A DNA stretch of 64,000 bases from Novosphingobium arvoryzae. GTDB taxonomy: Bacteria > Pseudomonadota > Alphaproteobacteria > Sphingomonadales > Sphingomonadaceae. The notes beneath the pieces were generated by a model that saw only the letters and a list, made by a program, of their open reading frames with translations, was not told the origin of the DNA and did no database searches. Each line of letters opens with the position of its first letter. Position 1 is the first letter of the stretch. Shown in pieces: positions 31,602 through 48,842 of the stretch. The stretch is taken from contig NZ_BMZD01000006.1 of NCBI RefSeq assembly GCF_014652615.1, positions 124,001-188,000 on the forward strand, read 5' to 3'. A program made the position numbers and the translations under genes.

Positions 31602-32279
31602 TCACTCCTGCCCGCAGGGCTTGTCCAGCGCGGCCAGAAATTCCGGTGCGCGCGCCAGCAATGCCCGATCCCAGGTATCGAAATCAACCGCGACGCCCAG
31701 CTTTTGCAGGCTGGTGACGCCAAACTCCTCGATCCCGCAGGGGACGATCCCGCTGAAGTGCGACAGATCGGGCGCCAGGTTTACAGAAAAGCCGTGCATC
31801 GTCACCCAGCGGCGGATGCGCACGCCGATGGCGCCGATCTTCGCCTCGCGCCCGTCGGTATCGCGGCACCAGATGCCGATCCTGCCTTCGCTGCGCCAGC
31901 TTTCGACACCGAAATCGCCCAGCGTGGCGATCACCCAGCCTTCCAGCGCATGGACGAACCCGCGCACGTCGCGCGCGCGCCGCTTCAAATCCAGCAGGAC
32001 ATAGCCGACCCGCTGGCCTGGGCCGTGATAGGTATAGCGCCCGCCGCGTCCGGCCTCCACCACTTCAAAGCGGGGGTCCAGCAGTTCGGCCACTGCCGCG
32101 CTGGTCCCGGCGGTATAGACGGGCGGATGTTCCAGCAGCCAGACCAGTTCACGCGCCTCGCCCGCGGCAATCGCGGCGTTGCGCGCGGTCATTTCATCCA
32201 GCGCGGCGCGATAGGGAACGGGCGCGTCATCGCGCCGCCATTCGATCGATTCGGGAAGGCTATCGGGCAACTTGTCCAT
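31602..32279 (-). CDS. lipB: Octanoyltransferase LipB
   Basis: Transfers octanoyl from acyl carrier protein to lipoyl domains, first step of protein lipoylation, cytoplasmic. 225 residues. Visible signatures: [12 protein letters not shown], the catalytic lysine in [10 protein letters not shown], and the catalytic cysteine in [15 protein letters not shown]. Start placed at 32279 (MDKLPDS); the open frame upstream overlaps the divergent membrane-protein gene. Confidence 0.95.
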
Positions 32280-32343
32280 CACGCGCGTTGCGTGGCGGCA
32301 ATTGCTGTGGTTATCAAGTGACTTCAACGGGAAGAGGTGCGCA

Positions 32344-33159
32344 ATGCGGTTTGACAGCAATCTGGCATGGAAGGACGCGGCCAGCGCCGTTTCGGCCAAT
32401 CGCGATGTCCTGCTGGCGCTGGCGGGGGTGTTCTTCGTCCTGCCCAGCTTTGCCTTTGCACTGCTCTATCCCCAGCCGGAACCGCCCGCCGGCGCCGCGC
32501 CGGAACAACTGTTCGAACTGATGGGGGCGTTCTATCGCCAGGCCTGGCCGGTCCTGCTGGCCATCGCCGCCGTGCAGATGGTGGGCACCCTGGCGATGCT
32601 GACCCTGTTCACCGATCGTAGCCGCCCGACTGTGGGGCAGGCGCTGGCACAGGGCCTGAACGGATTGGTCCCCGTCATCGCAGCACAATTGCTGCTGGGC
32701 ATGGGACTGGGTCTGGTCGCGCTGATTCCGCTGGTCGCCGCCGGGGCCACGGGCATTCCCGCCGCCGTCGCGCTGGTGATCGTGCTGGCCGGGGCAGTAA
32801 TGCTGTGGGCCTATATCCGCTCGGCGCTGGTCAGCCCGGCCGTGGTGGTGGACGGGATCCGCAATCCGGTGGCCGCCCTGCGCCGCAGCTTCGCCTTGAC
32901 CCGGGGCAACGCCGGGCGGATCGCGCTGTTCTTCCTGCTGCTGGTGGTCGCCTTCGTGATCGTCGTGGGGGTGATTTCAGCCTTGCTGGGAATGCTGTTT
33001 GAAGTGGTGATCGGCGGGGAAACCGCCACGGCGCTGACCGCGCTGGTATCCAGCGCGGGCGAAGCGGTGATGGCTGTCTATTTCGTGGCGGTGGTCGCCG
33101 CGACGCATCGCCAGCTGGCGGGGCCATCGGCAGACGCAACGGCAGCCCGCTTCGAATAG
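32344..33159 (+). CDS. Hypothetical multi-span membrane protein, copy 1
   Basis: A 271-residue inner-membrane protein with about six hydrophobic segments. It resembles the membrane domain found with glycerophosphodiester phosphodiesterases but has no catalytic domain. Features shared with the next gene: [23 protein letters not shown]-type segment after the fourth helix and an AATHRQLAG end. Function unknown. Divergent from lipB with 64 bp between starts. Confidence 0.75.
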
Positions 33160-33190
33160 CGCAGCGGGGGCAAAACGGGGGGGAAACGAT

Positions 33191-34036
33191 ATGCGCTTCA
33201 GTGGCAGCCGGGCCTTGTCGGAGGCTCTACAGATCATGCTGGCCCGGATTGGCCCGCTGATCGCGGTGACGATCATCGGCTATGTCGCGATCTTCGCGCT
33301 CAGCGGCGGAGTGCTGGCCAGCATGTTGCCCGCCATGCTCGGCAGCGCGCAGGAGGGCACGGCGCAAACGCCCGACGCCCTGTTCGCACAGTTCGGCGGC
33401 GGGATATTCCTGCTCTACATCGTGATCTACGCGGTCAGCTTTGCCCAGCAGGCGGCCTCTTGCCGGCTCTGTTCCGACCGGCACGAAGCCTCGATCGGCG
33501 GGGCAATCAGCGCCGGGATCAAGTGCGTGCCGACCCTGTTCGGGGTGGCGATCCTGCTGCTCATTGCCCTGCTCGCGCTGGCGCTGGTGGCCAGCCTGGG
33601 CATGGCCGGGATCGTGGCCGGAACCGAATCGGCGGGGCTGAGCTTTGTGCTGGCGCTGCTCATGCTGGCGGGTTTCATCTATGTCTTCGTGCGCCTGTCG
33701 ATGATCCTGCCGGTGGTGGCCATCGACGATGTCCGCAACCCCATCACCGCCATCGGCAATGCCTGGCGGATGACCGGCGGCAACGTGCTGCGGCTGGTGC
33801 TGGTATACCTGCTGGTCCTGGTGGTCATGGGGGTGCTGTTCATGGTGCTGAGCGCGCTGACGCTGGGTTCGTTCAACCCCGGCGCGGCCCCGTCGCTGGG
33901 CAACATGGTCGGCTTTGGCGTGCTGATGCTGGTCTATGGCCTGACCGTGGGGCTTTATTTCCTGGCGCTGGTCGCCGCGATCCATCGCCAGCTGGCCGAC
34001 ACTTCGGTCAGCGCGGTGGAAGAGACCTTTGCCTGA
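33191..34036 (+). CDS. Hypothetical multi-span membrane protein, copy 2
   Basis: A 281-residue membrane protein paralogous to the product of 32344-33159: the same placement of DDVRNPITAIGNAWRMTGGN after a long helix and a matching AAIHRQLAD end. About six hydrophobic segments. The 31-bp gap indicates an operon of two related proteins, possibly a heteromer (inference). Followed by a hairpin. Confidence 0.75.
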   Translation: MRFSGSRALSEALQIMLARIGPLIAVTIIGYVAIFALSGGVLASMLPAMLGSAQEGTAQTPDALFAQFGGGIFLLYIVIYAVSFAQQAASCRLCSDRHEASIGGAISAGIKCVPTLFGVAILLLIALLALALVASLGMAGIVAGTESAGLSFVLALLMLAGFIYVFVRLSMILPVVAIDDVRNPITAIGNAWRMTGGNVLRLVLVYLLVLVVMGVLFMVLSALTLGSFNPGAAPSLGNMVGFGVLMLVYGLTVGLYFLALVAAIHRQLADTSVSAVEETFA

Positions 34037-36601: not shown

Positions 36602-36650
36602 TGAGAGCGATTCGCATTAGCGGCATCATCGTTGTTGCAAATCATTCGCA
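36602..36650 (+). promoter_or_regulatory. Two Fur-box-like sites before the siderophore receptor
   Basis: TGAGAGC-G-ATTCGCA (36602-36616) and TGCAAAT-C-ATTCGCA (36636-36650) each fit the 7-1-7 inverted repeat layout of Fur boxes; the second matches in 6 of 7 symmetric positions. They lie in the 141-bp gap between the ArsC-like gene and the receptor. Suggests iron repression. Confidence 0.6.
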
Positions 36651-36661
36651 TTAAGGATCCC

Positions 36662-38764
36662 ATGACCCACACCCCGCGCCTTCGCCAGTTCGCCCTTCTC
36701 TGCACCAGCGCGCTGGGAACCCTGGGCTGGGCCGCCCCCGCGATGGCCGAAATGGCGGCCGATGCGGCGGATTCGCCGACGATCATCGTCTATGGCCGCC
36801 CCGACGGCTACGACACCGAAAAGACCCCGACCGCAACCAAGACCAGCACCCCGCTGGTCGATGTGCCGCAGGCGATGAACGTGATCAGCCGCGAACAGCT
36901 GAACGATCAGGGCATCGATTCTCTGGGCGATGCGCTGCGCTTCGTCCCCGGCGTCGTGCTGGGCCAGGGCGAAGGCCACCGCGACCAGATCACCCTGCGC
37001 GGGCAAAGCTCCACCGCGGATTTCTTCGTCGATGGCCTGCGTGACGATGCGCAATACTACCGCCCGCTCTACAACGCCGAGCGTGTCGAAGTGCTGAAGG
37101 GCGCCAACGCGCTGATCTTTGGCCGGGGTGGCGGCGGCGGGGTGATCAACCGCGTATCCAAGGCCCCCGAATATGACCGCACCCGCGTGGGCGCCAATGC
37201 CAGCGTTGACACGTTCGGTGGCTGGACGCTGTCGGCGGACCTCGGCGCGCCGCTGTCCGACACCATCGGCACCCGCATCAACGCCGCCTATGAGGAATTC
37301 GACAACCACCGGCAGAACTATGGTGGCCACTTCATCGGCGTGACGCCCACGATCGGCGCACAGCTTGGCGAAGCCACCACGCTGACCGTGACCTATGAAT
37401 ACGCCGAGGATGACCGCCTGACCGACCGCGGCGTCCCCTCGCGCGCGGGCCAGCCGCTGACCGGCTATGACGCCACCTTCTTCGGCAGCGTCGATCTCAA
37501 CCGCAGCGAAGTGACCGCGCATCTCGCCCATATGCGGCTGGACCACGCCTTTTCCGACAGCCTGAGCGCCAATTTCAACGCCCAGTACGCCCATTACGAC
37601 AAGTATTATGGCAACGTCTTCCCGCGCGCGGCGGTGACCGCCGCCAATACGGTGGAGCTGACCGGTTACAATAGCACCACGGTGCGCGAAAACGGGATCG
37701 TGCAGGGCAATCTTGTCTGGACCGGCGACACCGGCGGAATTGGCCACACCTTGCTGCTGGGCTTTGAAGCCGCAACCCAGGACACCGCCGCTACCCGCGC
37801 CGATGCCAGATTTGGCGGTGCGACCGTGACCTCCGTGGCTTTGGCCAAGCAGATCACCTTGCCGAGCGGGATCACGTTTGGCCCGATCACCAGTTCGTCC
37901 GTATCCGATGTTCGCGCGCTGTCCGCCTATGTGCAGGACCAGATCGACATCGGTGAGCACCTGAAGCTGGTCGCCGGCCTTCGCTATGACGACTTCCGCA
38001 TCACCTCCACCAACCGGATCAACGGGTTCAAGGGACAGCGCAGCGACGGCAAGTGGTCCCCCCGGCTGGGCGTGATCGTCAAGCCGCAGGACAACCTCTC
38101 GCTCTATGCCAGCTATGCCAAGAGCTTCCTGCCGCAGTCGGGCGACCAGTTCACCGTGCTGGACGCCACGACCCAGGCGCTGGCCCCCGAATCGTTCCGC
38201 AATCTGGAAGCCGGGGTGAAGTGGGATATTTCGACCGCGCTGGCCTTTACGCTGGCCGCCTATCAGCTGGACCGCACCAACACCCGCGCGACCGATCCCG
38301 TCACCGGCAACGTGGTGCAGACGGGCAAGAGCCGGACCAAGGGCATCGAGGCATCACTGGTCGGGCAGCTGACCGACGGGCTGCAAGTCTCGCTCGGCTA
38401 TGCCCTGCAGGACGGCGAAATCCGCGCCACCACCACCGCTGCCCCTGCCGGGCGCCGTCTGGCGCAGCTGCCGCGCCACCAGCTGTCGGCCTGGGGCCGC
38501 TATCAGCTCACGGACAAGCTGGGGATCGGACTGGGCCTGCTGCACCAGTCTAGCCAGTTCTCCACTATCAGCAGCGCGGTGCGCATGCCCGCCTTCACGC
38601 GCCTCGATGCCGGGGTGTTCTATGACGTGTCGGACCGGATCGCGCTGCAGCTGAACGTCGAGAACCTGACCGACGCGGACTACTTCCCCAGCGCGCATAC
38701 CGATAACAACATCACGGCCGGCGAACCGCTCAATGCAAAACTGACGCTGCGGGTGAAGTACTGA
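36662..38764 (+). CDS. TonB-dependent siderophore receptor
   Basis: Outer-membrane ferric-siderophore receptor, 700 residues. Signal peptide ends near residue 30 (APAMA), followed by TIIVYGRPDGY, a plug domain with VDVPQAMNVISREQL and RFVPGVVLGQGEGHRDQITLRG, and VEVLKGANALIFGRGGGGGVIN, all typical of the TIGR01783 siderophore receptors. Barrel ends in an aromatic residue (RVKY). Two Fur-like boxes lie upstream. The ligand is not evident and no siderophore synthesis genes are near. Confidence 0.93.
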   Translation: MTHTPRLRQFALLCTSALGTLGWAAPAMAEMAADAADSPTIIVYGRPDGYDTEKTPTATKTSTPLVDVPQAMNVISREQLNDQGIDSLGDALRFVPGVVLGQGEGHRDQITLRGQSSTADFFVDGLRDDAQYYRPLYNAERVEVLKGANALIFGRGGGGGVINRVSKAPEYDRTRVGANASVDTFGGWTLSADLGAPLSDTIGTRINAAYEEFDNHRQNYGGHFIGVTPTIGAQLGEATTLTVTYEYAEDDRLTDRGVPSRAGQPLTGYDATFFGSVDLNRSEVTAHLAHMRLDHAFSDSLSANFNAQYAHYDKYYGNVFPRAAVTAANTVELTGYNSTTVRENGIVQGNLVWTGDTGGIGHTLLLGFEAATQDTAATRADARFGGATVTSVALAKQITLPSGITFGPITSSSVSDVRALSAYVQDQIDIGEHLKLVAGLRYDDFRITSTNRINGFKGQRSDGKWSPRLGVIVKPQDNLSLYASYAKSFLPQSGDQFTVLDATTQALAPESFRNLEAGVKWDISTALAFTLAAYQLDRTNTRATDPVTGNVVQTGKSRTKGIEASLVGQLTDGLQVSLGYALQDGEIRATTTAAPAGRRLAQLPRHQLSAWGRYQLTDKLGIGLGLLHQSSQFSTISSAVRMPAFTRLDAGVFYDVSDRIALQLNVENLTDADYFPSAHTDNNITAGEPLNAKLTLRVKY

Positions 38765-38777
38765 GGGGCGCTGGCCC

Positions 38778-39314
38778 CTACTCCCCCCGCATCGCCGGAA
38801 CCGCGCGGGCGGCGTCTTCGGGCGTCAGGCCCGGAGCGGGGGCCGCGCTGATCGTTTCCAGCCGCCGCATCACGCGCCCGGCGCGCTGGATCGCGCGGAC
38901 CAGCCGGGGATAGACCCCGCATCGGCACAGGTTCGGCACGGCAGCGGCGATATCTTCCGGCGTGGGATCGGCATTGCGCGCCAGCAGCGCGGCGGCCGAA
39001 ATGGCGATGCCGGGGGTGCAGAACCCGCACTGGATCGCCTGTTCGGCCACCAGCGCCTGCTGCACCGGATGCGACCGGTCGGGCGAAAGCCCCTCAATCG
39101 TGGTGACGACCCGCCCTTCCGCTTCGCCCAGCGTGATCAGGCAGCTGCGCAGCGCCGCGCCGTCGACCAGCACCATGCACGCGCCGCAATCGCCCGATCC
39201 GCAGCCATACTTGGTCCCGGTCAGGTTCGCGGCGCTGCGCAGGCCCCACAGCAGCGGGGTCTGCGGGTCCATCCGAAATTCGAGCGGACGGTCATTGACG
39301 GTCAGGCGGGTCAT
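38778..39314 (-). CDS. [2Fe-2S] subunit of a xanthine dehydrogenase-family oxidoreductase
   Basis: A 178-residue small electron-transfer subunit of molybdenum hydroxylases (IorA/CoxS type). The ferredoxin-like cluster has C38-X4-C43-X2-C46 and C58, and the second four-helix cluster has CGFC and CRCG. The C-terminal 25 residues are an Ala/Pro-rich tail. The molybdopterin large subunit that should sit beside it is absent on both sides: a receptor gene lies 13 bp downstream and an aldolase gene 11 bp upstream. Confidence 0.9.
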   Translation of the reverse strand: MTRLTVNDRPLEFRMDPQTPLLWGLRSAANLTGTKYGCGSGDCGACMVLVDGAALRSCLITLGEAEGRVVTTIEGLSPDRSHPVQQALVAEQAIQCGFCTPGIAISAAALLARNADPTPEDIAAAVPNLCRCGVYPRLVRAIQRAGRVMRRLETISAAPAPGLTPEDAARAVPAMRGE

Positions 39315-39325
39315 CTAGCGCGAAA

Positions 39326-40099
39326 TCAGTCGCGCCAGCTGCGGTCGATCTTGTCGATCCGGCGGGTCCACGCCTCGAAATCGCCCTGCCCCGGCAGCTT
39401 GCCCGGCACCTGCCCCTGCGCCAGATCGCGCTGGTGGACGGCCACGACCTCGTCCGGCACCAGCACGGGCTTGCCCATCGCCAGCGTCGCCATCTGGATT
39501 TCGCACGCGCGCTGCAGCGACCAATGCTGGATGAAGATTTCCGGGATCGAGCGGCCCAGGATCACAGGGCCGTGGTTCTTCAGCATCAGGATGCGCTTGT
39601 CACCCAGGTTGGCGAGCAGCCGCTCCCCTTCCTCGGCGCGCACGGTGATGCCTTCGAAATCATGATAGGCCAGCTTGCCGATGAAGTTGCAGGCATAAAA
39701 GTTCACCGGTTGCAGCCCGCCTTCCAGGCTGCACACCGCCATCGTCGCGGTGGTGTGGGTGTGGACGATGGCATGGGCCCACGGCACGTGGCGATGGAAA
39801 TAGCTGTGCTGCACGAACCCGGCCTTGTTCACCGGATAGGGGCTGCCATCCAGCGTGTTGCCATCGATGTCGATCTTGACCAGGTTCGAGGCGCAGACTT
39901 CGGAATAGAGCAAGCCGAACGGGTTGATCAGGAACGCGTTATCCTCACCCGGCACGCGCACCGAGATGTGGTTGTAGATCGACTCGGCCCAGCCAAGGTG
40001 ATCGAAGATGCGATAGCACGCGGCCAGTTCCTGCCGCGCCTGCCATTCTTCCTCGCTGCATTCGATGTTGCGCGCATGCGCGTTCAACTGGGTGGCCAT
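39326..40099 (-). CDS. Class II aldolase/adducin family protein
   Basis: A 257-residue zinc-dependent aldolase-fold protein. Metal-ligand histidines are seen in VHTHTTATM and KNHGPVILG. The family splits or decarboxylates sugar phosphates and related substrates; the actual reaction is unknown. Start at 40099 (MATQLNA) has GGAG 6-7 bp upstream, while the ATGs at 40111 and 40114 lack a site. It lies 11 bp before the [2Fe-2S] subunit gene on the same strand. Confidence 0.85.
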   Translation of the reverse strand: MATQLNAHARNIECSEEEWQARQELAACYRIFDHLGWAESIYNHISVRVPGEDNAFLINPFGLLYSEVCASNLVKIDIDGNTLDGSPYPVNKAGFVQHSYFHRHVPWAHAIVHTHTTATMAVCSLEGGLQPVNFYACNFIGKLAYHDFEGITVRAEEGERLLANLGDKRILMLKNHGPVILGRSIPEIFIQHWSLQRACEIQMATLAMGKPVLVPDEVVAVHQRDLAQGQVPGKLPGQGDFEAWTRRIDKIDRSWRD

Positions 40100-40187
40100 C
40101 GGCGTCTCCATCATTTTGTCGTTGAGGCGGCACCGGAGCGGGGGAGCGGGCCGGTGCCGTCTGTTGCGCCAGCAACACTAAGCCAAA

Positions 40188-42194
40188 TCAACGCCCGATG
40201 GAAACGCTCAATCCGGCCCAGACCGTGCGGGGCGTGCCCAGGTCGATGGAGCCGCCCTGATTGCGGGTGACGATGGTTTCGTCGGTCAGGTTCTCACCCC
40301 GCAGCACCACTGTGAAGCGCGGGCTGAGCGGCACGCGGATCACCGCGTCGAGCGTGGTCGCGGACGGCTGGAGATCGGTTTCCAGATCATCCTCATACTG
40401 CGCACCGATGTGCCGCAGCGTGGCCGACAGCAGCCAGCCATCGCGCGGCATCCACGCCACCGTTGCGCTGGCGGCCAGCTTGGCGACTTGCGCGGGACGC
40501 TTGCCATCCAGCGCCAGCGAGGCCCCGCTGGCCTGCACTTCGGCATCGGTCAGCGCCAGCGCGCCATCGAACCGGACCGTCCCCAGCCTGGCCGAGGCCG
40601 CCAGTTCCACCCCGCGCGAATGCACCGCATCGACATTGCGGCGCTCGCGCAGGTTGGTGCCAATGGTGACGTTGGCGATGGCGTTCTTCACCTTGTTGTC
40701 GAACGCGGTCAGGTTCAGCGTCACGCCGTCAACCGGGGCGAGGTCCACGCCCGCCTCGAACCCCAGCAATTCCTCATTCCGCAAGGCCGCATTGGCGCGC
40801 GTGGTGACGGGGAACACGGCGAAGGGCCGGTAGAGTTCGTTCAGGGTCGGCTGGCGCAGACTGGTATAGGCCGCCGCCCGCAGCGCCACGCCTGCTGCCG
40901 CCTGCACCCGCGCGCCGCCACGCCAGCTGACGTCCCAGCCCGCGCGGTCTGCAAAGATGTTGTTGATGGTGGTCGTCCCGGCAGCGTTCGCCTCGGTGAA
41001 GCTGCCATCGCGGATCGTCCAGCGATCGGCCCGGACGCCGCCGGTCAGCGTCAGCGCGTCCAGCGTCCAGCTGTCCTCCAGATAGAGCCCCAGATCAGTG
41101 TTGCGCCCGCCTGCGCGGCGGCGCGCGGTGACGAGGCCGGTAACCCCGCTGTAGGCCTCTTCCTGCGTGCGCCCGGTCATGCTGCGCCAGTCCGCACCCA
41201 GCCGCACTTCATGCCCGCCGCCCACCGGTGGGCGCAGTTCCAGCTTGCCGCCGATCCCGGTGGCGGGGGTGCGGCGCTGGTGCAGCGTCTTGCGGAAACT
41301 GGTGGAGCTGATCACGATATTGGAGAAATCGCGCGCCTGCACATAAGCCAGCGCATCGAACTGCCACGCGCCCCGGCCGACCAGCCGCACGCTGGCGTCC
41401 TGCCCGCGCGTGGCGGTATCTGCCCCGGCAAAGCGCAAGGTGCGCTGATCGTCATAGGCCAGCCCCCGGACCTGCAGTTCCACTGTGTCGGTCAGCGGCG
41501 CGACCGCGCGCAGCCCTGCCGACCAGCTGTCATAGCGCGCCCGTGCGCTGGCCGCGACGCGCTGGGCCACGGGCGTGGTCCAGAACCCCTGCCCCCGGTC
41601 CCAGCGCCCGCTGAGCACGGCAAAGCCCTGCCCCAGTTCCGGTGCGAGCGTGGCGGACAACTCGCTTTCGCCCCGGTCGTTGACCAGCACGCTGGCGTTC
41701 AGCAGGTCCAGTTCATCCGCGCCCGCGCTGACCATTTCGATGGTTCCGGCCACCGCCCCCGCGCCGAATGCGCCAGATCCGCCCCCACGCGTCACCAGCA
41801 CGCGCGACAGGCGTTCGGGCGCGATGCCGGAAAACGGGATGTAGCCAAAGAACGGGTCGGCCTGCGGCACGCCGTCGAGCAGGATCAGCGTGCGGCTGGA
41901 GGCATTGCCGCCCAGCCCGCGGAACGTCACCCCTTGCGCGGACGGATTGGCCGAGCGGCTGTCCGAGCGGCGAAACTGCTGAAACCCCGCAGCGGACGCC
42001 AGCACGTCCTCCAGCCGCCCCGATGCCGCGCCAGCGATCCGGTCACGCGCGATCGCCTGTACGCCATAGATGCCGTCTTCGGCAGTGCGGTCCAGCCCCT
42101 GTCCGGTAACGACGATGGTCTGGTCATCCGCCGTTTCGGCGTGGGCGGAAACCGGCAGGGCGAGAAGGGCGACGGGGATCAGGACATAGCGCAT
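40188..42194 (-). CDS. TonB-dependent receptor adjoining the phosphate regulon
   Basis: Outer-membrane receptor, 668 residues, of the compact BtuB-like type. Signal peptide ends near residue 20 (SAHA), TonB-box-like DDQTIVVTG follows, then the plug (RLEDVLASAAGFQQF, GVTFRGLGGNASSRTLILLDG) and barrel. It starts 44 bp after the phoB stop on the same strand, so it may be read with pstSCAB-phoU-phoB. This suggests uptake of a phosphorus compound; no ligand motif shows it directly. ATG 42194 (MRYVLIP) fits the signal peptide better than the ATG seven codons earlier. Confidence 0.88.
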   Translation of the reverse strand: MRYVLIPVALLALPVSAHAETADDQTIVVTGQGLDRTAEDGIYGVQAIARDRIAGAASGRLEDVLASAAGFQQFRRSDSRSANPSAQGVTFRGLGGNASSRTLILLDGVPQADPFFGYIPFSGIAPERLSRVLVTRGGGSGAFGAGAVAGTIEMVSAGADELDLLNASVLVNDRGESELSATLAPELGQGFAVLSGRWDRGQGFWTTPVAQRVAASARARYDSWSAGLRAVAPLTDTVELQVRGLAYDDQRTLRFAGADTATRGQDASVRLVGRGAWQFDALAYVQARDFSNIVISSTSFRKTLHQRRTPATGIGGKLELRPPVGGGHEVRLGADWRSMTGRTQEEAYSGVTGLVTARRRAGGRNTDLGLYLEDSWTLDALTLTGGVRADRWTIRDGSFTEANAAGTTTINNIFADRAGWDVSWRGGARVQAAAGVALRAAAYTSLRQPTLNELYRPFAVFPVTTRANAALRNEELLGFEAGVDLAPVDGVTLNLTAFDNKVKNAIANVTIGTNLRERRNVDAVHSRGVELAASARLGTVRFDGALALTDAEVQASGASLALDGKRPAQVAKLAASATVAWMPRDGWLLSATLRHIGAQYEDDLETDLQPSATTLDAVIRVPLSPRFTVVLRGENLTDETIVTRNQGGSIDLGTPRTVWAGLSVSIGR

Positions 42195-42238
42195 AGCGTG
42201 ATGCCTTTGCCGCAATCCCCGCGCTTTTCAATGCGGAC

Positions 42239-42925
42239 TTAGGCCAGTTCCATCGAATAGCCGGCGGCGCGCACGGTGCGGATCAGGCTTTCCTCGTCCG
42301 GCCGGTCGATCGCCTGGCGCAGGCGGCGGATGTGGACGTCCACGGTGCGCTCGTCGATCTCGCGGTCCATGCCCCAGACGGCGTCGATCAGCTGCTGGCG
42401 GGAATGGACCCGGCCCGGCCGTTCCATGAAGTGGCGCAGCAGGCGGAACTCGGTCGGCCCCAGCTTCAGCGTCTCGCCCGCCCGGCGTACGCGGTGGGCG
42501 ACCGGGTCCAGTTCCAGATCGGCCACTTTCAGCACGTCGCCTTCCAGCGCGGGACGGCTGCGGCGCAGCAGCGCCTCGACCCGGGCGAGCAGTTCACGCG
42601 GGGAGAACGGCTTGGTCACGTAATCGTCGGCGCCGGTCTTCAGGCCGCGAATGCGGTCTTCCTCCTCGCCACGCGCGGTCAGCATCAGGATCGGCACGCG
42701 GGCGCTGTCCTTGTGGCGGCGCAGCTGGCGGCAGACCTCGATCCCGGACAGGTTCTCGATCATCCAGTCGAGGATGATCGCGTCGGGCACGCTCTCGCGG
42801 ACCATGACCAGCGCTTCCTCGCCATCGGGCGTGACGCGCACGTCATACCCTTCGGACTTGAGGTTCCATTCCAGCAACTCGGACAGTGCCGCATCGTCCT
42901 CGACGATGAGGATCGAGGCGGCCAT
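42239..42925 (-). CDS. phoB: Phosphate regulon response regulator PhoB
   Basis: OmpR-family regulator, 228 residues, activated under phosphate limitation by PhoR. Receiver domain with acidic pocket (VEDD, 8-11), phosphoacceptor Asp53 in AIILDWMI and Lys in TKPFSPREL; the C-terminal winged helix has VDVHIRRLRQAI. Its start overlaps the phoU stop (ATGA). It should bind the PHO box at 47783-47800. Confidence 0.96.
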   Translation of the reverse strand: MAASILIVEDDAALSELLEWNLKSEGYDVRVTPDGEEALVMVRESVPDAIILDWMIENLSGIEVCRQLRRHKDSARVPILMLTARGEEEDRIRGLKTGADDYVTKPFSPRELLARVEALLRRSRPALEGDVLKVADLELDPVAHRVRRAGETLKLGPTEFRLLRHFMERPGRVHSRQQLIDAVWGMDREIDERTVDVHIRRLRQAIDRPDEESLIRTVRAAGYSMELA

Positions 42926-43617
42926 CAGTCGGCCTTCTCGACCCCGGCAGGCAACTCGCGCGAGGCGTGGTAGATGCCGGTCGCCGCGAAATAGACCATT
43001 TCCGCCACGTTGGTCGCATGGTCGCCGATGCGTTCCAGGTTGCGCGCCACGAACAGCAGCTGCGCCGCGCTGGAAATCGTCGCCGGGTTTTCCATCATGT
43101 GGGCCACCAGGTTGCGGAAGATGCTGTCGTAGAAGTTGTCGAGCTTTTCGTCGCGCGCGATCACTTCCAGCGCCAGTTCCGCATCGCGCGAACCATAGGC
43201 GTTGAGCACGTCGCGGACCATACCCTGGGCGATTTCCGCCATGGCGGGGACCAGGATCAGCGGTTCGAACTTCTTCAGCCGCTCGATCTGGCCGACGCGC
43301 TTGGCGATGTTCTTGGCATAGTCGCCAATCCGCTCGACCACACCGGAAATCTTGAGCGCGGCGATCACGTCGCGCAGGTCGTCCGCCATCGGCGCGCGCA
43401 GCGCGATCACGCGCACGGCCAGCCGGTCCACTTCTGCTTCCAGCGCGTCCAGCTTGGCGTCGGCCTGGACCACGGTCTGGGCCAGCACTTCATCGCGCTG
43501 CACCAGCGCTTCCACCGCGTCGCGGATCGCGACTTCGGCCAGTCCGCCCATTTCGGCGACCAGCCCGCGCAACTGCGCGATTTCGTTATCGAATGCCTTG
43601 ACGGTATGTTCGGCCAT
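42925..43617 (-). CDS. phoU: Phosphate signalling protein PhoU
   Basis: Cytoplasmic negative regulator that links PstB activity to PhoR; 230 residues with two three-helix PhoU repeats, each with an E/D-rich metal-binding signature (ISGVVERIGDYAKNIA and RNLERIGDHATNVAE). Lies 10 bp after pstB and overlaps phoB. Confidence 0.95.
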   Translation of the reverse strand: MAEHTVKAFDNEIAQLRGLVAEMGGLAEVAIRDAVEALVQRDEVLAQTVVQADAKLDALEAEVDRLAVRVIALRAPMADDLRDVIAALKISGVVERIGDYAKNIAKRVGQIERLKKFEPLILVPAMAEIAQGMVRDVLNAYGSRDAELALEVIARDEKLDNFYDSIFRNLVAHMMENPATISSAAQLLFVARNLERIGDHATNVAEMVYFAATGIYHASRELPAGVEKAD

Positions 43618-43627
43618 GATCGTTTCC

Positions 43628-44395
43628 TCAGCCGTAGCGGCCCGTGATGTAATCCTTGGTGCGCTCTTCGCGCGGATTGGTGAAGATGTCCTCGGTCACG
43701 CCGTATTCGACGACCGTGCCGAGGTGGAAGAACGCGGTGCGCTGTGACACGCGCGCAGCCTGCTGCATCGAGTGGGTGACGATCACGATCGCGTAGCGTT
43801 CCTTCAGATCGTCGATCAGCTCCTCGATCCGGGCGGTGGCGATGGGGTCCAGCGCAGAGCACGGCTCGTCCATCAGGATCACTTCGGGGCTGACCGCGAT
43901 GGCGCGGGCAATGCACAGGCGCTGCTGCTGGCCACCGGACAGGGCAGTACCGGATTCGGCCAGCCGGTCCTTGACCTCGTCCCACAGGCCGGCGCGGCGC
44001 AGCGACTTTTCGACAATCGCGTCCATGTCGGCCTTGTTGCCGGCCAACCCGTGAATGCGCGGGCCATAGGCCACGTTTTCATAGATCGACTTGGGGAACG
44101 GGTTGGGCTTTTGAAACACCATGCCCACCCGCGCGCGCAGTTCGACCACGTCCATGCCGCTGGCGTAGATGTCCTGCCCGTCCAGCGCGATCTGGCCTTC
44201 CACGCGGCATCCCGCGATGGTGTCGTTCATCCGGTTGAGCGTGCGCAGAAACGTCGACTTGCCGCAGCCCGACGGGCCGATGAACGCCGTCACCACGCCG
44301 GTCGAGATGTCGATCGAGACATCGTTGATGGCCTGCTTCGCGCCGTAGAACACGTTCACGTTGCGGGCCGCGATCTTGAGTTTCTGTTCTGTCAT
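43628..44395 (-). CDS. pstB: Phosphate ABC transporter ATPase PstB
   Basis: ATP-binding subunit of the high-affinity phosphate importer, 255 residues. Walker [10 protein letters not shown], signature [14 protein letters not shown], Walker [13 protein letters not shown] and the switch histidine in IVTHSMQQA are all present. Ends KDYITGRYG as PstB proteins do. Start lies 4 bp after the pstA stop. Confidence 0.97.
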
Positions 44396-44399
44396 GGGG

Positions 44400-45290
44400 T
44401 TACCAACGGGTCTCGAACTTGTTGCGCAGATAGATGGCCAGGCCGTTCATCGCCATCAGCAGCACCAGCAGCACGATGATCGCGGCGGAGGTGTTCTGGA
44501 CAAAGGCCTGGTCGATTTCGTCCGACCACAGGAAGATCTGCATCGGCATGACGCTGGCCGGATCGGTGATCCCGCCCGGCGGGGTGGCGACAAAGGCGCG
44601 CATCCCGATCATCAGCAGCGGCGCGGTTTCACCCAGCGCGCGGGCCATGCCGATGATGGTCCCGGTCAGGATTCCGGGCAGCGCCAGCGGCAGGACATGG
44701 TGGAACACCGCCTGCACCGGGCTGGCGCCGACGGCCAGCGCGGCATCGCGGATCGACGGCGGCACCGCCTTGATCGCGTTGCGCCCGGAAATCACGATCA
44801 CCGGCATCGTCATCAGCGCCAGCGTCATGCCGCCCACCAGCGGCGAGGAGCGCGGCAGGTGCATGACGTTGATGAACACCGCCAGCCCCAGTAGGCCGAA
44901 AATGATCGAAGGCACGGCCGCAAGGTTGTTGATCGATACTTCGACCCATTCCACCCAGCGCCGGCCCTTGGGCGCGAACTCTTCCAGATAGACGGCCGCC
45001 AGCACCCCCAGCGGGAACGACAGCGCCAGCGTGACGCCCATCGTCAGGATCGAGCCCTTTGCCGCCCCCCAGACCCCGGCGACGGTCGCGTCGGTGGAAT
45101 CCGATCCGGTCAGGAACGCCCAGTCGATCCCGCCCAGCCCCTGCCGCAGCATGGTGAACAGCAGGAACGCCAGGAACAGCAGGCTGGTGGCGATGGCGAC
45201 CAGGCCCAGCGCCTTGAACCGGCGCTCTGCCGCATGGCGGCGGGCCAGCCGCCGCTGCATTTCGGGCGCTTGCCAGGACGAATTAATCAT
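44400..45290 (-). CDS. pstA: Phosphate ABC transporter permease PstA
   Basis: Membrane permease subunit, 296 residues, about six helices with the ABC permease coupling-loop region [21 protein letters not shown]. The gene overlaps pstC by 8 bp. Works with PstC, PstB and PstS in phosphate import. Confidence 0.96.
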
Positions 45291-46656
45291 ACGCTTCCCG
45301 ATACTTCTTCACGACGCGCAGGGCGACGATGTTGAGCGCCAGGGTAACCACGAACAGCACCAGACCCAGCGCGAAAGCCGACAGGGTCTTGGGACTGTCG
45401 AATTCCTGGTCGCCGGTCAGCAACTGGACGATCTGGAACGTCACCGTGGTCATGCTGTCAAACGGATTGGCCGACAGGCGCGCGGCGGCACCGGCGGCCA
45501 TCACGACGATCATGGTTTCCCCGATCGCCCGGCTGACCGCCAGCATCACGCCCGCAACGATGCCGGGCAGCGCGGCCGGCAGCAGCACGCGCTTGATCGT
45601 TTCGGACTTGGTCGCGCCCATCGCCAGGCTGCCATCGCGCATCGCCTGCGGCACGGCCGCGATGCTGTCATCCGCCATCGAGGACACGAACGGGATGATC
45701 ATCACCCCCATCACCACGCCCGCGGCCAGCGCGCTTTCGGTCGACGGGTTTTCGGCCCCCATCGCGGCGGCGAAATCGCGGACCAGCGGAGCGACCGTCA
45801 GCGCGGCGAAATAACCGTACACCACGGTCGGGATACCCGCCAGGATCTCCAGCGCGGGCTTCAGCCACTTGCGCATGGTCGCCGAGGCATATTGCGTCAG
45901 GAACACCGCGCTCATCAGGCCCAGCGGGATCGCCACGATCATCGCGATGACCGCACCGATGAACAGCGTGCCCCAGAACAGCGGGACCGCGCCGAAATCC
46001 TTGCCCAGTTCCGCATCGAACCCGGTGCGCGGCGCCCAGTGGGTGCCGGTCAGGAAATCGATGGGGGAAACGTGGCGGAAGAACAGGCCGGTTTCATAAA
46101 CCAGCGAAATGACGATGCCCGCTGTCGTCAGGATCGCGATCAGCGATGCGACCAGCAGGGTCATCAGCGTGGCCCGTTCGACGCGGGTCCGCGCCGGGAA
46201 GCCCGCCTTGACCCGCGTATAGCCAAACGCGCCGCCCGCAAACGCCGTCAGCGCCGCCAGCGCCGCGCCGATCATGGCAAAGCGGGTTTCGATGCCGCGC
46301 ACCACTTCGGCCAGTTGCTGGGCCATCGGGTTGAATGCCGCCGCATCGGGATTGCGGGCCAGCTGGCTGGCTTCGGCCAGGATCGCGTCGCGCTCCATAT
46401 CGAAGGCCGGCAGCTGCGCCGCGGCCGGATCGGCCAGGATCGCGCCGCGAACCAGCCCCGGAGAGATCCCTCCCCAGACAGCCCAGACCAGCACGGCCGG
46501 GACCACGATCCACAGCAGCATGTGCCAGCCATGATAGGACGGGACGGCGGCCAGCGAGCCCCGTCCGGTGTAAAGCGCCTGAGCCTTGGCGCGGGCGGCA
46601 AACCAGCCAGCCACACCAAGGCCCAGAACGACAAGTAGTACAAACTGCGAGATCAC
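45283..46656 (-). CDS. pstC: Phosphate ABC transporter permease PstC
   Basis: Permease subunit, 457 residues, which is longer than E. coli PstC because of an N-terminal extension with two extra hydrophobic segments (LVVLGLGVAGWFA and the MLLWIVVPAVLVWAVWG stretch) and a soluble loop of about 100 residues before the core. The core has the coupling loop RDGSLAMGATKSETIKRVLLPAALPG. This long form is common in alphaproteobacteria. Starts 34 bp after the pstS stop. Confidence 0.95.
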   Translation of the reverse strand: MISQFVLLVVLGLGVAGWFAARAKAQALYTGRGSLAAVPSYHGWHMLLWIVVPAVLVWAVWGGISPGLVRGAILADPAAAQLPAFDMERDAILAEASQLARNPDAAAFNPMAQQLAEVVRGIETRFAMIGAALAALTAFAGGAFGYTRVKAGFPARTRVERATLMTLLVASLIAILTTAGIVISLVYETGLFFRHVSPIDFLTGTHWAPRTGFDAELGKDFGAVPLFWGTLFIGAVIAMIVAIPLGLMSAVFLTQYASATMRKWLKPALEILAGIPTVVYGYFAALTVAPLVRDFAAAMGAENPSTESALAAGVVMGVMIIPFVSSMADDSIAAVPQAMRDGSLAMGATKSETIKRVLLPAALPGIVAGVMLAVSRAIGETMIVVMAAGAAARLSANPFDSMTTVTFQIVQLLTGDQEFDSPKTLSAFALGLVLFVVTLALNIVALRVVKKYREAYD

Positions 46657-46690: not shown

Positions 46691-47734
46691 TTACTTCAGA
46701 ACCGACGGGTCCATCAACGTGAGCTTCGCGGCGACGTCCGCATTCTTGGTGCGCACGTCTTCCGGCGCGATCACCATGCCCTTCGCCTTCAGCACGCCAT
46801 CGGGACCCCACGACTTGGCCCACTCGGCCACGTATTCCTTCAGGCCCTTGATCGCTTTGAGGTGCCCGGCCTTGACGTAGATGTAGAGCGGGCGGGCGCC
46901 CGGGTAGCTGAAATCGACGATCGATTCATAGGTGGGCATCACGCCCGACATCGGGATGCCCTTCAGCTTCGTGGTGTTTTCTTCCAGGTAGGAGAACCCG
47001 AACACGCCGATCGCCTTGGGGTTTTCGGCAATCTTCTGGACGATCAGGTTATCGTTCTCACCCTGGACGACATAGGCACCGTCTTCACGCACGCCGGTGC
47101 AGACCTTCTTGTGCGCATCCTTGTCGGTGTCCTTCAGCGCCTTCATCGCCGGGTCGCTTTCGCAGCCCTTGGTCAGGATCAGTTCGGCCAGCGCGTCACG
47201 CGTGCCAGAGGTCGACGGCGGGCCATAGACCATGATCGGAATAGCGGGCAGCGCCGGGTTCACATCGGCCCAGGTCTTGGCGGTGTTGGGCTTGCCGAAC
47301 GGGTTGGCGGCCAGCGCCTTGTACACATCGACCGGAGTCAGCTTCATGTCGGGGCCGTTGGTGCCTTCGGCGAAGGCGATCCCGTCAAGCCCGACCTGGA
47401 TTTCGATGATGTCCTTCACGCCGTTCTTGGCGCAATCCTCGTACTCGGACTTCTTCATCCGGCGCGAGGCGTTTTCGATATCGGGGTGCTGCGCGCCAAG
47501 GCCGGCGCAGAACAGCTTCATCCCCGCACCGGTACCGGTCGATTCGACCACGGGCGACTTGATCCCGGCCGACTTGGCCGCGTTTTCCGCCACGGCGGTG
47601 GCAAACGGATAGAGGGTGGAGGAACCCACCACGCGGACAAAGTCCCGCGCGCCGGACGAGGATTCGCCGGAACCGCAGGCGGCCAGCGCCAGCGAGGAAA
47701 GGGTCAGGACGGCAACGGTACGAATCGAGCGCAT
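46691..47734 (-). CDS. pstS: Phosphate-binding lipoprotein PstS
   Basis: Substrate-binding component of the phosphate importer, 347 residues. Lipobox LAAC (Cys about 20) suggests membrane tethering. The phosphate-loop signature VVGSSTLYPF opens the mature protein, and a second loop GPPSTSGTRDAL is typical. ATG 47734 with AGAGG upstream is chosen; the longer frame would run across the PHO box. Confidence 0.96.
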   Translation of the reverse strand: MRSIRTVAVLTLSSLALAACGSGESSSGARDFVRVVGSSTLYPFATAVAENAAKSAGIKSPVVESTGTGAGMKLFCAGLGAQHPDIENASRRMKKSEYEDCAKNGVKDIIEIQVGLDGIAFAEGTNGPDMKLTPVDVYKALAANPFGKPNTAKTWADVNPALPAIPIMVYGPPSTSGTRDALAELILTKGCESDPAMKALKDTDKDAHKKVCTGVREDGAYVVQGENDNLIVQKIAENPKAIGVFGFSYLEENTTKLKGIPMSGVMPTYESIVDFSYPGARPLYIYVKAGHLKAIKGLKEYVAEWAKSWGPDGVLKAKGMVIAPEDVRTKNADVAAKLTLMDPSVLK

Positions 47735-47782
47735 GGCAACCTCTTGGTCTGCATCTGTCGAGAGGCCGGATATGAAGGTTGC

Positions 47783-47800
47783 ATGACAGTTTAATGACAA
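47783..47800 (-). promoter_or_regulatory. PHO box (PhoB site) for pstS
   Basis: Minus-strand TTGTCATTAAACTGTCAT closely matches the PHO box of two CTGTCAT repeats 11 bp apart. A -10-like TATCCG (47772-47767) lies 10 bp downstream, the spacing expected when the box replaces the -35 element. A third partial repeat TGTGACGAC lies just upstream. The pstS ATG is 48 bp past the box. Confidence 0.88.
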
Positions 47801-47831: not shown

Positions 47832-48842
47832 TCAGGGCATCAGCGGCAGAATCAGCGATGCGACAGTGCCTTCGCCGGGGCGACTGGCAATATCGAATCG
47901 GCCCCGGTGGCGCTCAACGATGTGCTTGACGATCGCCAGCCCCAGCCCGGTTCCCCCTGCCGCGCGGCTGCGGCTGGCATCGGCGCGATAGAACCGCTCG
48001 GTCAGGCGCGGCAGGTGTTCCGGGGCAATCCCTTCACCCTCGTCCCGCACGCTCAGCGAAACCCGGCCCGATGGCGTAACCTCGATCGTCACCGCCACTT
48101 CGCCATCCGGCTTGCCATACTTGATCGCGTTGTCGATCAGGTTGCGCAGCACTTGTGCCAGTTGCCCGCGATCCCCGGCGACTTGCGCCGCTTCGGTGTT
48201 GGCGGTGACCGACACATTCGCCCGCTCGCCGACCTCGCCCGCACATTCGCGGGCCAGCGCAACCAGTTCGACCGGCGCGGTCGGCGCGTCGTGCTTGACC
48301 GCCTCGATCCGGGAAAGCGACATCAGGTCCTCGATCAGGGCCTGCATCCGCCGCGCTTCGTGGCGAATGATGCCCAGGAACCGCTTGCGGGTCGCCTCGT
48401 CCGCCCCGGCCTTGGGGTCATCCAGCGTTTCGACATAGCCCAGGATCGCGGCCAGCGGCGTGCGCAGCTCATGGCTGGCGTTGGCGACGAAATCGGCGTG
48501 GGCGCGGGCCACGCTGACCCGCACCGACAGGTCTTCCAGCACCAGCAACCGCGCGCCGTCCTCCAGCACATGACAGGCCACGTTCCAGCGGCTGCCCCGC
48601 ACCGAGAGCCCGTCCACCGTCACGTTGCCGCCGCCAGGCTGGGCGATCAGCGCCACGACCTTGGGATCGCGGATCGCGATCCGGGGGTCCTGCCCCACGA
48701 TATGCGCACCCAGCACATCGCGCGCGGCGGCATTGGCAAAGCGCACCTGGCCACCGGAAATCAGCAGCGCGGGAGTGGCGACATAATCGAGCAGGCGGGG
48801 GTCGGTTGGCTTCATGAATTGCAGCTTATGGCGCTTCTCCAT
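47832..48842 (-). CDS. phoR: Phosphate regulon sensor histidine kinase PhoR, apparently soluble
   Basis: Histidine kinase, 336 residues. A PAS-like N-terminal domain (about 15-105) leads into the H box ASHELRTPL with phosphorylated His124, then N box RNLIDNAIKYG and G boxes DEGEGI and GTGLGLAIV. Unlike E. coli PhoR there is no hydrophobic membrane anchor, and only 66 bp separate the start from the divergent dehydrogenase gene. An alternative start lies at 48815. It is upstream of the PHO box, so it is not under the pstS promoter. Confidence 0.92.
   Translation of the reverse strand: MEKRHKLQFMKPTDPRLLDYVATPALLISGGQVRFANAAARDVLGAHIVGQDPRIAIRDPKVVALIAQPGGGNVTVDGLSVRGSRWNVACHVLEDGARLLVLEDLSVRVSVARAHADFVANASHELRTPLAAILGYVETLDDPKAGADEATRKRFLGIIRHEARRMQALIEDLMSLSRIEAVKHDAPTAPVELVALARECAGEVGERANVSVTANTEAAQVAGDRGQLAQVLRNLIDNAIKYGKPDGEVAVTIEVTPSGRVSLSVRDEGEGIAPEHLPRLTERFYRADASRSRAAGGTGLGLAIVKHIVERHRGRFDIASRPGEGTVASLILPLMP

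Follow-up and report, generated by a model that had tools for sequence, protein, structure and literature searches.

A widespread TonB-dependent receptor gene placed behind the Pho operon in one small clade of Novosphingobium type

Introduction

In the alphaproteobacterium Caulobacter crescentus, PhoB controls several TonB-dependent receptors, and the authors of that work think that phosphate donors are imported (PMC11208175, as far as its excerpted text goes); a further Caulobacter report, likewise available in part, describes a TonB-dependent receptor that is found in low-phosphate stalks and whose expression is constitutive (PMC2996285). At the tonB2-fiuA locus of Sphingobium SYK-6, which belongs to a related genus, a TonB-dependent receptor gene is also transcribed from the promoter of the gene upstream, and control elements lie in the receptor's own gap too (PMC7376174, from the portion of the text available). 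With respect to structure, the small cofactor receptors BtuB and PqqU are, together with siderophore receptors, among the closest solved structures to the receptor studied here: they are alike in size, plug and barrel, share about 17-19% identity with it in structure alignments, and have NCBIfam models whose cut-offs the receptor falls far below.

Here we analyse a receptor gene of Novosphingobium arvoryzae that follows phoB in a stretch of 64,000 nucleotides (NZ_BMZD01000006.1, positions 124,001 to 188,000; henceforth ‘the window’). The locus is like that of Caulobacter in joining a TonB-dependent receptor to phosphate starvation in an alphaproteobacterium, but the Caulobacter tie comes from transcriptome data, whereas the present one is known from gene order alone and most orthologues are unlinked to Pho genes (PMC11208175, excerpted text). 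It would resemble tonB2-fiuA in being transcribed from upstream and having control elements in its own gap as well, and differs in that iron and Fur are involved on the SYK-6 side (PMC7376174, portion available). A literature search found no paper on this receptor or on its linkage to the phosphate operon. A sequence-only reading of this DNA had proposed that the receptor is induced by phosphate starvation and imports phosphorus compounds across the outer membrane. The case illustrates how little a gene's place next to a regulator reveals about its substrate: copies of this receptor are widespread in the family and mostly not Pho-linked. If the rewiring behind the Pho operon is true, the four species that have the linkage and their unlinked relatives would offer a natural comparison of an operon taking over its neighbour.

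Results

A TonB-dependent receptor gene follows phoB

The receptor gene is open throughout, from ATG 42194 to the stop codon at 40188-40190, and its product contains both domains by which a TonB-dependent receptor is recognised, with the plug (PF07715) at 56.5 bits against a Pfam cut-off of 23.9 and the barrel (PF00593) at 154.2 bits against 27. The mean pLDDT of the AlphaFold model is 86.6, and TonB-driven transport is predicted. The receptor itself is an ordinary protein. Because the whole genome contains 38 PF00593 matches, 37 of them above the cut-off and representing about 36-37 genes, a single TonB-dependent receptor gene adjoining phoB would on its own be no great surprise. As listed in Table 1, the gene order phoR-pstSCAB-phoU-phoB described by the sequence-only reading was confirmed, with PstS and PhoR scoring below their NCBIfam cut-offs, as was the position of the receptor on the same strand 44 nt after phoB.

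Table 1. Coordinates of the features at the receptor locus, numbered along the window.
Feature	Position	Strand	Basis or remark
2Fe-2S protein gene	38778..39314	-	PF01799, PF00111
class II aldolase family gene, after receptor	39326..40114	-	PF00596
TonB-dependent receptor, 668 aa, plug + barrel	40188..42194	-	Pfam, AlphaFold model
phoB-receptor gap, 44 nt, with promoter-like element	42195..42238	-	same layout in three more species
phoB	42239..42925	-	TIGR02154 332.2 bits, cut-off 296.2; stop 42239-42241
phoU	42925..43617	-	TIGR02135 219.8 bits, cut-off 130.25
pstB	43628..44395	-	TIGR00972 over cut-off
pstA	44400..45290	-	TIGR00974 over cut-off
pstC	45283..46656	-	TIGR02138 over cut-off
pstS, likely start ATG 47734	46691..47734	-	PF12849; TIGR02136 137.6 bits, below cut-off 206.6
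Pho box TTGTCAT-TAAA-CTGTCAT + weaker third half-site	47772..47800	-	pattern + matrix
phoR	47832..48842	-	best NCBIfam match TIGR02966 276.3 bits, below cut-off 334.2

The main Pho box (47783-47800) lies ahead of pstS and is the sole mismatch-free match to TGTCATNNNNCTGTCAT in the 3.3-Mb genome, where up to two mismatches give 34 matches compared with 5 for a reversed control. The longest pstS open reading frame begins within the box, at TTG 47800; ATG 47734 is the likelier start and opens a lipoprotein-like signal sequence (read by eye). A Pho matrix was built from 16 pstS-upstream sites, 15 from relatives and one from the window, after 19 pstS loci had been scanned and four (L106, L111, L113 and L081), whose best site had four mismatches, left out; its training scores of 18-31 are high by construction, as poor sites were dropped. 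The pstS box scores 29.8 and 12.6 with this matrix, the only scores above 10 in the window. Elsewhere in the same genome (L121:1812-2511), two overlapping Pho boxes precede a gene pair, which we take from its sequence to encode a DUF47 protein and a Pit phosphate permease and which is likely a second PhoB target.

The linkage belongs to one clade of a widespread receptor

By this protein, the closest relatives with a name are Novosphingobium records and MAGs assigned to that genus or to Sphingomonadales, and the genus samples used here are taken to be of Novosphingobium. Taking matches of 1e-60 or better as orthologues, we found the receptor in 117 of 119 genomes of the genus (at 54-73% identity when the window's genome is set aside) and in 153 of 197 genomes of the order; PhoU is present in 114 of the 119 and 186 of the 197. 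Only 2 of the 113 genus genomes having both genes place them within 3 kb of each other, the remaining 111 having them farther apart on the same contig (31) or on different contigs (80). In the order sample (122 of the 197 genomes with a row for the receptor, 131 with one for PhoU and 116 with both, weaker rows from other families being dropped) the receptor adjoins phoU in 1 of the 116 genomes compared, namely the window's own, while in the other 115 the two are farther apart on one contig (62) or on different contigs (53). The different-contig cases (80/113 and 53/116) could hide a few adjacencies. Among 80 named loci, taken with flanks of at most 3 kb, phoB and phoU lie upstream of the receptor in three, again the linked G358, G033 and G363, and not in the other 77. 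A deeper scan of 195 genus genomes, of which 12 passed 1e-290, gave six new close orthologues that were inspected for linkage: G363 (92% identical) and G358 (73%) have phoB upstream, and the other four have no upstream phoB within the stretches fetched. In G027 the receptor divergently adjoins phoR, 6.5 kb from phoU and at a contig end, with no Pho box between phoR and receptor (best score 6.2), and at L208:6702-7661 a phoR-like gene lies convergently about 1.8 kb after the receptor; closeness of the receptor to Pho genes may thus recur, judging from these two cases. The orthologues of G111 and G023 (L025 and L026) each contain a single in-frame TAG inside the matched stretch.

A tree built from 34 receptors unites the four linked ones in a single clade (100/100), and its sister (joint fork 91/84) consists of six receptors that follow tRNA-Thr. 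ARAGORN found tRNA-Cys and tRNA-Thr in the four sister-type loci scanned (L082, L083, L084 and L091). The RNase II gene and the two tRNAs that mark this sister context are, in the genome of the window, on another contig, C1, without the receptor, and in G033 the RNase II gene is adjoined by tRNA-Cys only. In 20 relatives that have the Pho operon elsewhere, simple gene calls place the gene after phoB on the other strand in 16. Since the linked receptors are a single clade and the contexts elsewhere are different, the phoB-receptor joint appears confined to this clade, where a single rearrangement would have brought the receptor, aldolase and 2Fe-2S genes and the end of the Pho operon together. 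The PhoB proteins of G093, G053 and G071 (L108, L109 and L110) form a deep branch apart from G114 (L101) and the linked species; their receptors are nonetheless close. One genus thus has two types of Pho operon, perhaps through replacement.

Probable read-through from the Pho operon and a candidate own promoter

The sequence-only reading had seen no terminator between phoB and the receptor, and indeed neither a terminator-like nor a consensus promoter-like site is listed in the 44-nt gap, where the RNA folds no better than shuffled sequences (z -0.62). As the genes share a strand, the gap is short and free of a terminator-like site, a PhoB box lies upstream of the operon and the linkage is kept in four species, the sequence is consistent with membership of the Pho operon and read-through into the receptor is plausible. 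We favour, with a probability of roughly 0.55, a reading in which a widespread receptor has been joined once to the Pho operon and would be transcribed both by read-through and from its own promoter. When phosphate is low, the PhoB-driven pst-phoU-phoB operon would read through into the receptor gene, with weak additional transcription from a near-leaderless promoter in the gap, and phosphate shortage may in this way help to switch on the receptor in the linked clade.

The candidate promoter in the window reads TTGAAA-N17-AAAGGC, followed by the ATG 8 nt on. Most positions differ between the four linked gaps, and what is kept is CATTGAA and RA(A/T)GG at a fixed 17-nt spacing, so that all share TTGAA(A/T)-N17-RAWGGS with the ATG 8-10 nt downstream. 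The usual first T of the -10-like hexamer is absent in all four. This element, whose pattern was picked post hoc, resembles a near-leaderless promoter belonging to the receptor gene itself, its -10 being weak. Zymomonas, which belongs to the same order as the window's organism, has sigma-A promoters of the form TTGNNN-17-TANNNN with a discriminator of mostly 6 bp, and leaderless mRNAs are not rare there, with 119 leaderless gene pairs among 2,675 (PMC7566282, excerpted text). At 15 of 69 receptor loci TA(A/G/T)(A/G)G occurs 4-14 nt ahead of an ATG or GTG that is in frame, compared with a mean of 5.7 in shuffled sequences, and the -35 place of these 15 loci agrees with TTGACA at 3.4 of 6 positions against 2.3 in shuffles; such promoter patterns were chosen after the sequences had been seen, and their counts are a guide only.

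The same element could mean that the adjacency is accidental and that the receptor is transcribed from its own promoter only, without a response to phosphate. The sequence-only reading had itself named a separate promoter unresponsive to phosphate as a finding that would count against it, a point on which this element has a bearing. The conservation of the element in all four gaps, the excess of the TA-type pattern with its better -35 match, and the occurrence of receptor and phoU within 100 kb of each other in several relatives, such that a chance rearrangement nearby might bring the two together, speak for this reading; against it, a gap without a terminator-like site leads one to expect read-through, the -10-like hexamer is weak in every linked species, and the pattern, picked by inspection, is absent from 54 of the 69 loci. 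We regard an own promoter as sole source of transcription as unlikely, if still a serious contender. The loss of the first -10 T in 4/4 linked species, set against the TA-type -10 in 15/69 loci, also raises the thought of a regulon capture in progress in this one clade, whereby the -10 decayed after the joining, transcription passed to read-through from the PhoB-driven operon, and an old importer unrelated to phosphorus came under phosphate control. This is a doubtful elaboration that we put forward tentatively.

With regard to direct control by PhoB, none of 74 receptor upstream regions, those of the window and G033 included, contains a Pho box at a score of 9 or more, the best reaching 6.8, where mononucleotide shuffles place the 95% level at 6.2 and the 99% level at 13.3. 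The regions ran from -300 to +60 of starts chosen by rule, some of which are wrong yet inside the range covered. The gap of G358 scores 10.4 with the Pho matrix, while in the window 2 of 127,966 positions score that high, both at pstS, and the homologous stretch scores 2.9 in G033, -10.3 in G363 and -19.8 in G000; a weak PhoB site in the G358 gap is possible. A search for a shared regulatory motif in 31 loci of other genera gave no common one, each dyad being limited to at most 5 of the loci (shuffled maximum 3). A Fur-like stretch is visible by eye at a few receptor loci.

Neighbouring genes and the case for phosphorus import

Two further genes, those of the aldolase and the 2Fe-2S protein, follow the receptor on its strand. 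No terminator-like site is listed in the 73 nt that separate receptor and aldolase; they belong to a stretch whose folding is somewhat more stable than that of shuffled sequences (z -1.58; 12 of 200 shuffles fold equally well). In the other three linked species, and in L082, L083 and L084, an aldolase gene likewise comes after the receptor. The 2Fe-2S protein presumably is a small subunit of a molybdenum hydroxylase; no large subunit was found among the open reading frames scanned around window positions 36632-39314, a region in which a second TonB-dependent receptor lies beside the first.

A conserved partner gene was sought by clustering the neighbours at 41 loci, with the receptor called in 35, and was rejected, as the direct neighbours vary: those scanned include glycogen enzymes, RNase II, a flavin monooxygenase, an acetyl-CoA synthetase type, other TonB-dependent receptors, thymidylate synthase, alanine racemase, FAA hydrolase, glutathione transferase, cytochrome b561 and macro domain proteins. 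Within the genus the 2Fe-2S cluster recurs at 15 of the 41 loci and the aldolase at 6, which we read as local synteny. Two adjoining genes 6-10 kb downstream of the receptor (window 32272-34036) match the glycerophosphodiester phosphodiesterase membrane domain GPDPase_memb (PF10110) below threshold, at 25.8 and 24.1 against a cut-off of 29.6, and their cluster recurs at 14 of the 41 loci. Besides the Pho operon and these weak matches, the scanned part of the neighbours holds no phosphatase or phosphonate gene.

These contexts bear directly on the proposal that the receptor is a Pho regulon member importing organophosphate, polyphosphate or phosphonate. It draws on the receptor's place behind phoB in four species, phoR beside or near it in G027 and L208, the PhoB-controlled receptors of Caulobacter (PMC11208175, excerpted text), the PF10110-like genes, and conserved arginines in the plug that could suit an anion. 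These points are outweighed, in our judgement, by the orthologues, which mostly lie beside non-Pho genes in the genus, order and named-locus samples alike, by the upstream regions devoid of Pho boxes and by the scanned neighbours otherwise lacking phosphatase or phosphonate genes, and we consider such import improbable. Orthologues lying mostly beside unrelated genes are also what the sequence-only reading had named as an outcome that would speak against its proposal. Pho regulon membership across the family, which would appear as orthologues beside Pho genes or with a Pho box of their own, was not seen. What stands of the original interpretation is that transcription with the Pho operon is plausible in the linked clade; for phosphorus import no support beyond position was found.

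The ligand

In Foldseek searches of the receptor model, PqqU with PQQ ranked first (E 1.4e-31), BtuB reaching 4.8e-29, whereas VIA-align gave Z-scores of 37.9 for FyuA, 36.8 for BtuB and 34.4 for PqqU, and a profile of the receptor family matched PqqU chains at 1e-15 and Cir better, at 4.3e-19. The receptor scores 27.8 bits with the NCBIfam PqqU model NF041535 (cut-off 1200) and 75 bits with the BtuB model TIGR01779 (cut-off 599.7), and no cobalamin riboswitch was found at the gathering score in the window or at 20 orthologue loci. By sequence and predicted model, then, the receptor falls among BtuB, PqqU, Cir and siderophore receptors with no clear nearest relative. Assigning a ligand by structure comparison was abandoned, as siderophore, B12 and PQQ receptors score alike and none is singled out.

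The import of PQQ or a like cofactor would give the Pho link a purpose, since PQQ-dependent glucose dehydrogenase drives gluconate-based release of mineral phosphate. PqqU with PQQ is the top Foldseek match and the family profile finds PqqU chains, but Cir fits that profile better, FyuA and BtuB stand above PqqU in VIA-align, the PqqU model falls far short of its cut-off, and PqqU is largely absent from Alphaproteobacteria (PMC12124388, according to the part of the text available). A PQQ importer serving mineral phosphate release is consequently, to our mind, very improbable.

The plug stretch FRRSDSRSANPS is invariant or at least 90% conserved at 9 of 12 positions among 27 orthologues down to 42% identity. 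This stretch may be a ligand-facing loop, by analogy with BtuB, and its conservation suggests one ligand common to the receptor family; the ligand is probably the same throughout. Given a probably shared ligand and the lack of a Pho link in most copies, an original role in phosphorus import is unlikely. On the reading we prefer, that of a widespread receptor joined once to the Pho operon, the gene would be the local copy of a family-wide importer of a small ligand of the BtuB, PqqU or siderophore-receptor kind, and the tie to phosphate would be regulatory and lineage-specific rather than a sign of phosphorus in the ligand.

A tRNA end in front of the receptor

A separate observation concerns the start of the receptor in relatives. 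At seven loci (L010, L012, L014, L015, L022, L029 and L030) the 3' end of tRNA-Thr(CGT) lies before the receptor, and at all seven the reading frame is open into the tRNA; six of them have no other ATG or GTG receptor start. By coordinates, a tRNA-Thr end at most about 50 bp before the receptor match occurs in 8 of 119 genus genomes, the pattern itself being present in 55 of 119. A GTG in the T-arm of the tRNA would begin MFESRKRHH followed by a hydrophobic signal sequence, and the tRNA end may thus encode the basic part of the receptor's signal peptide.
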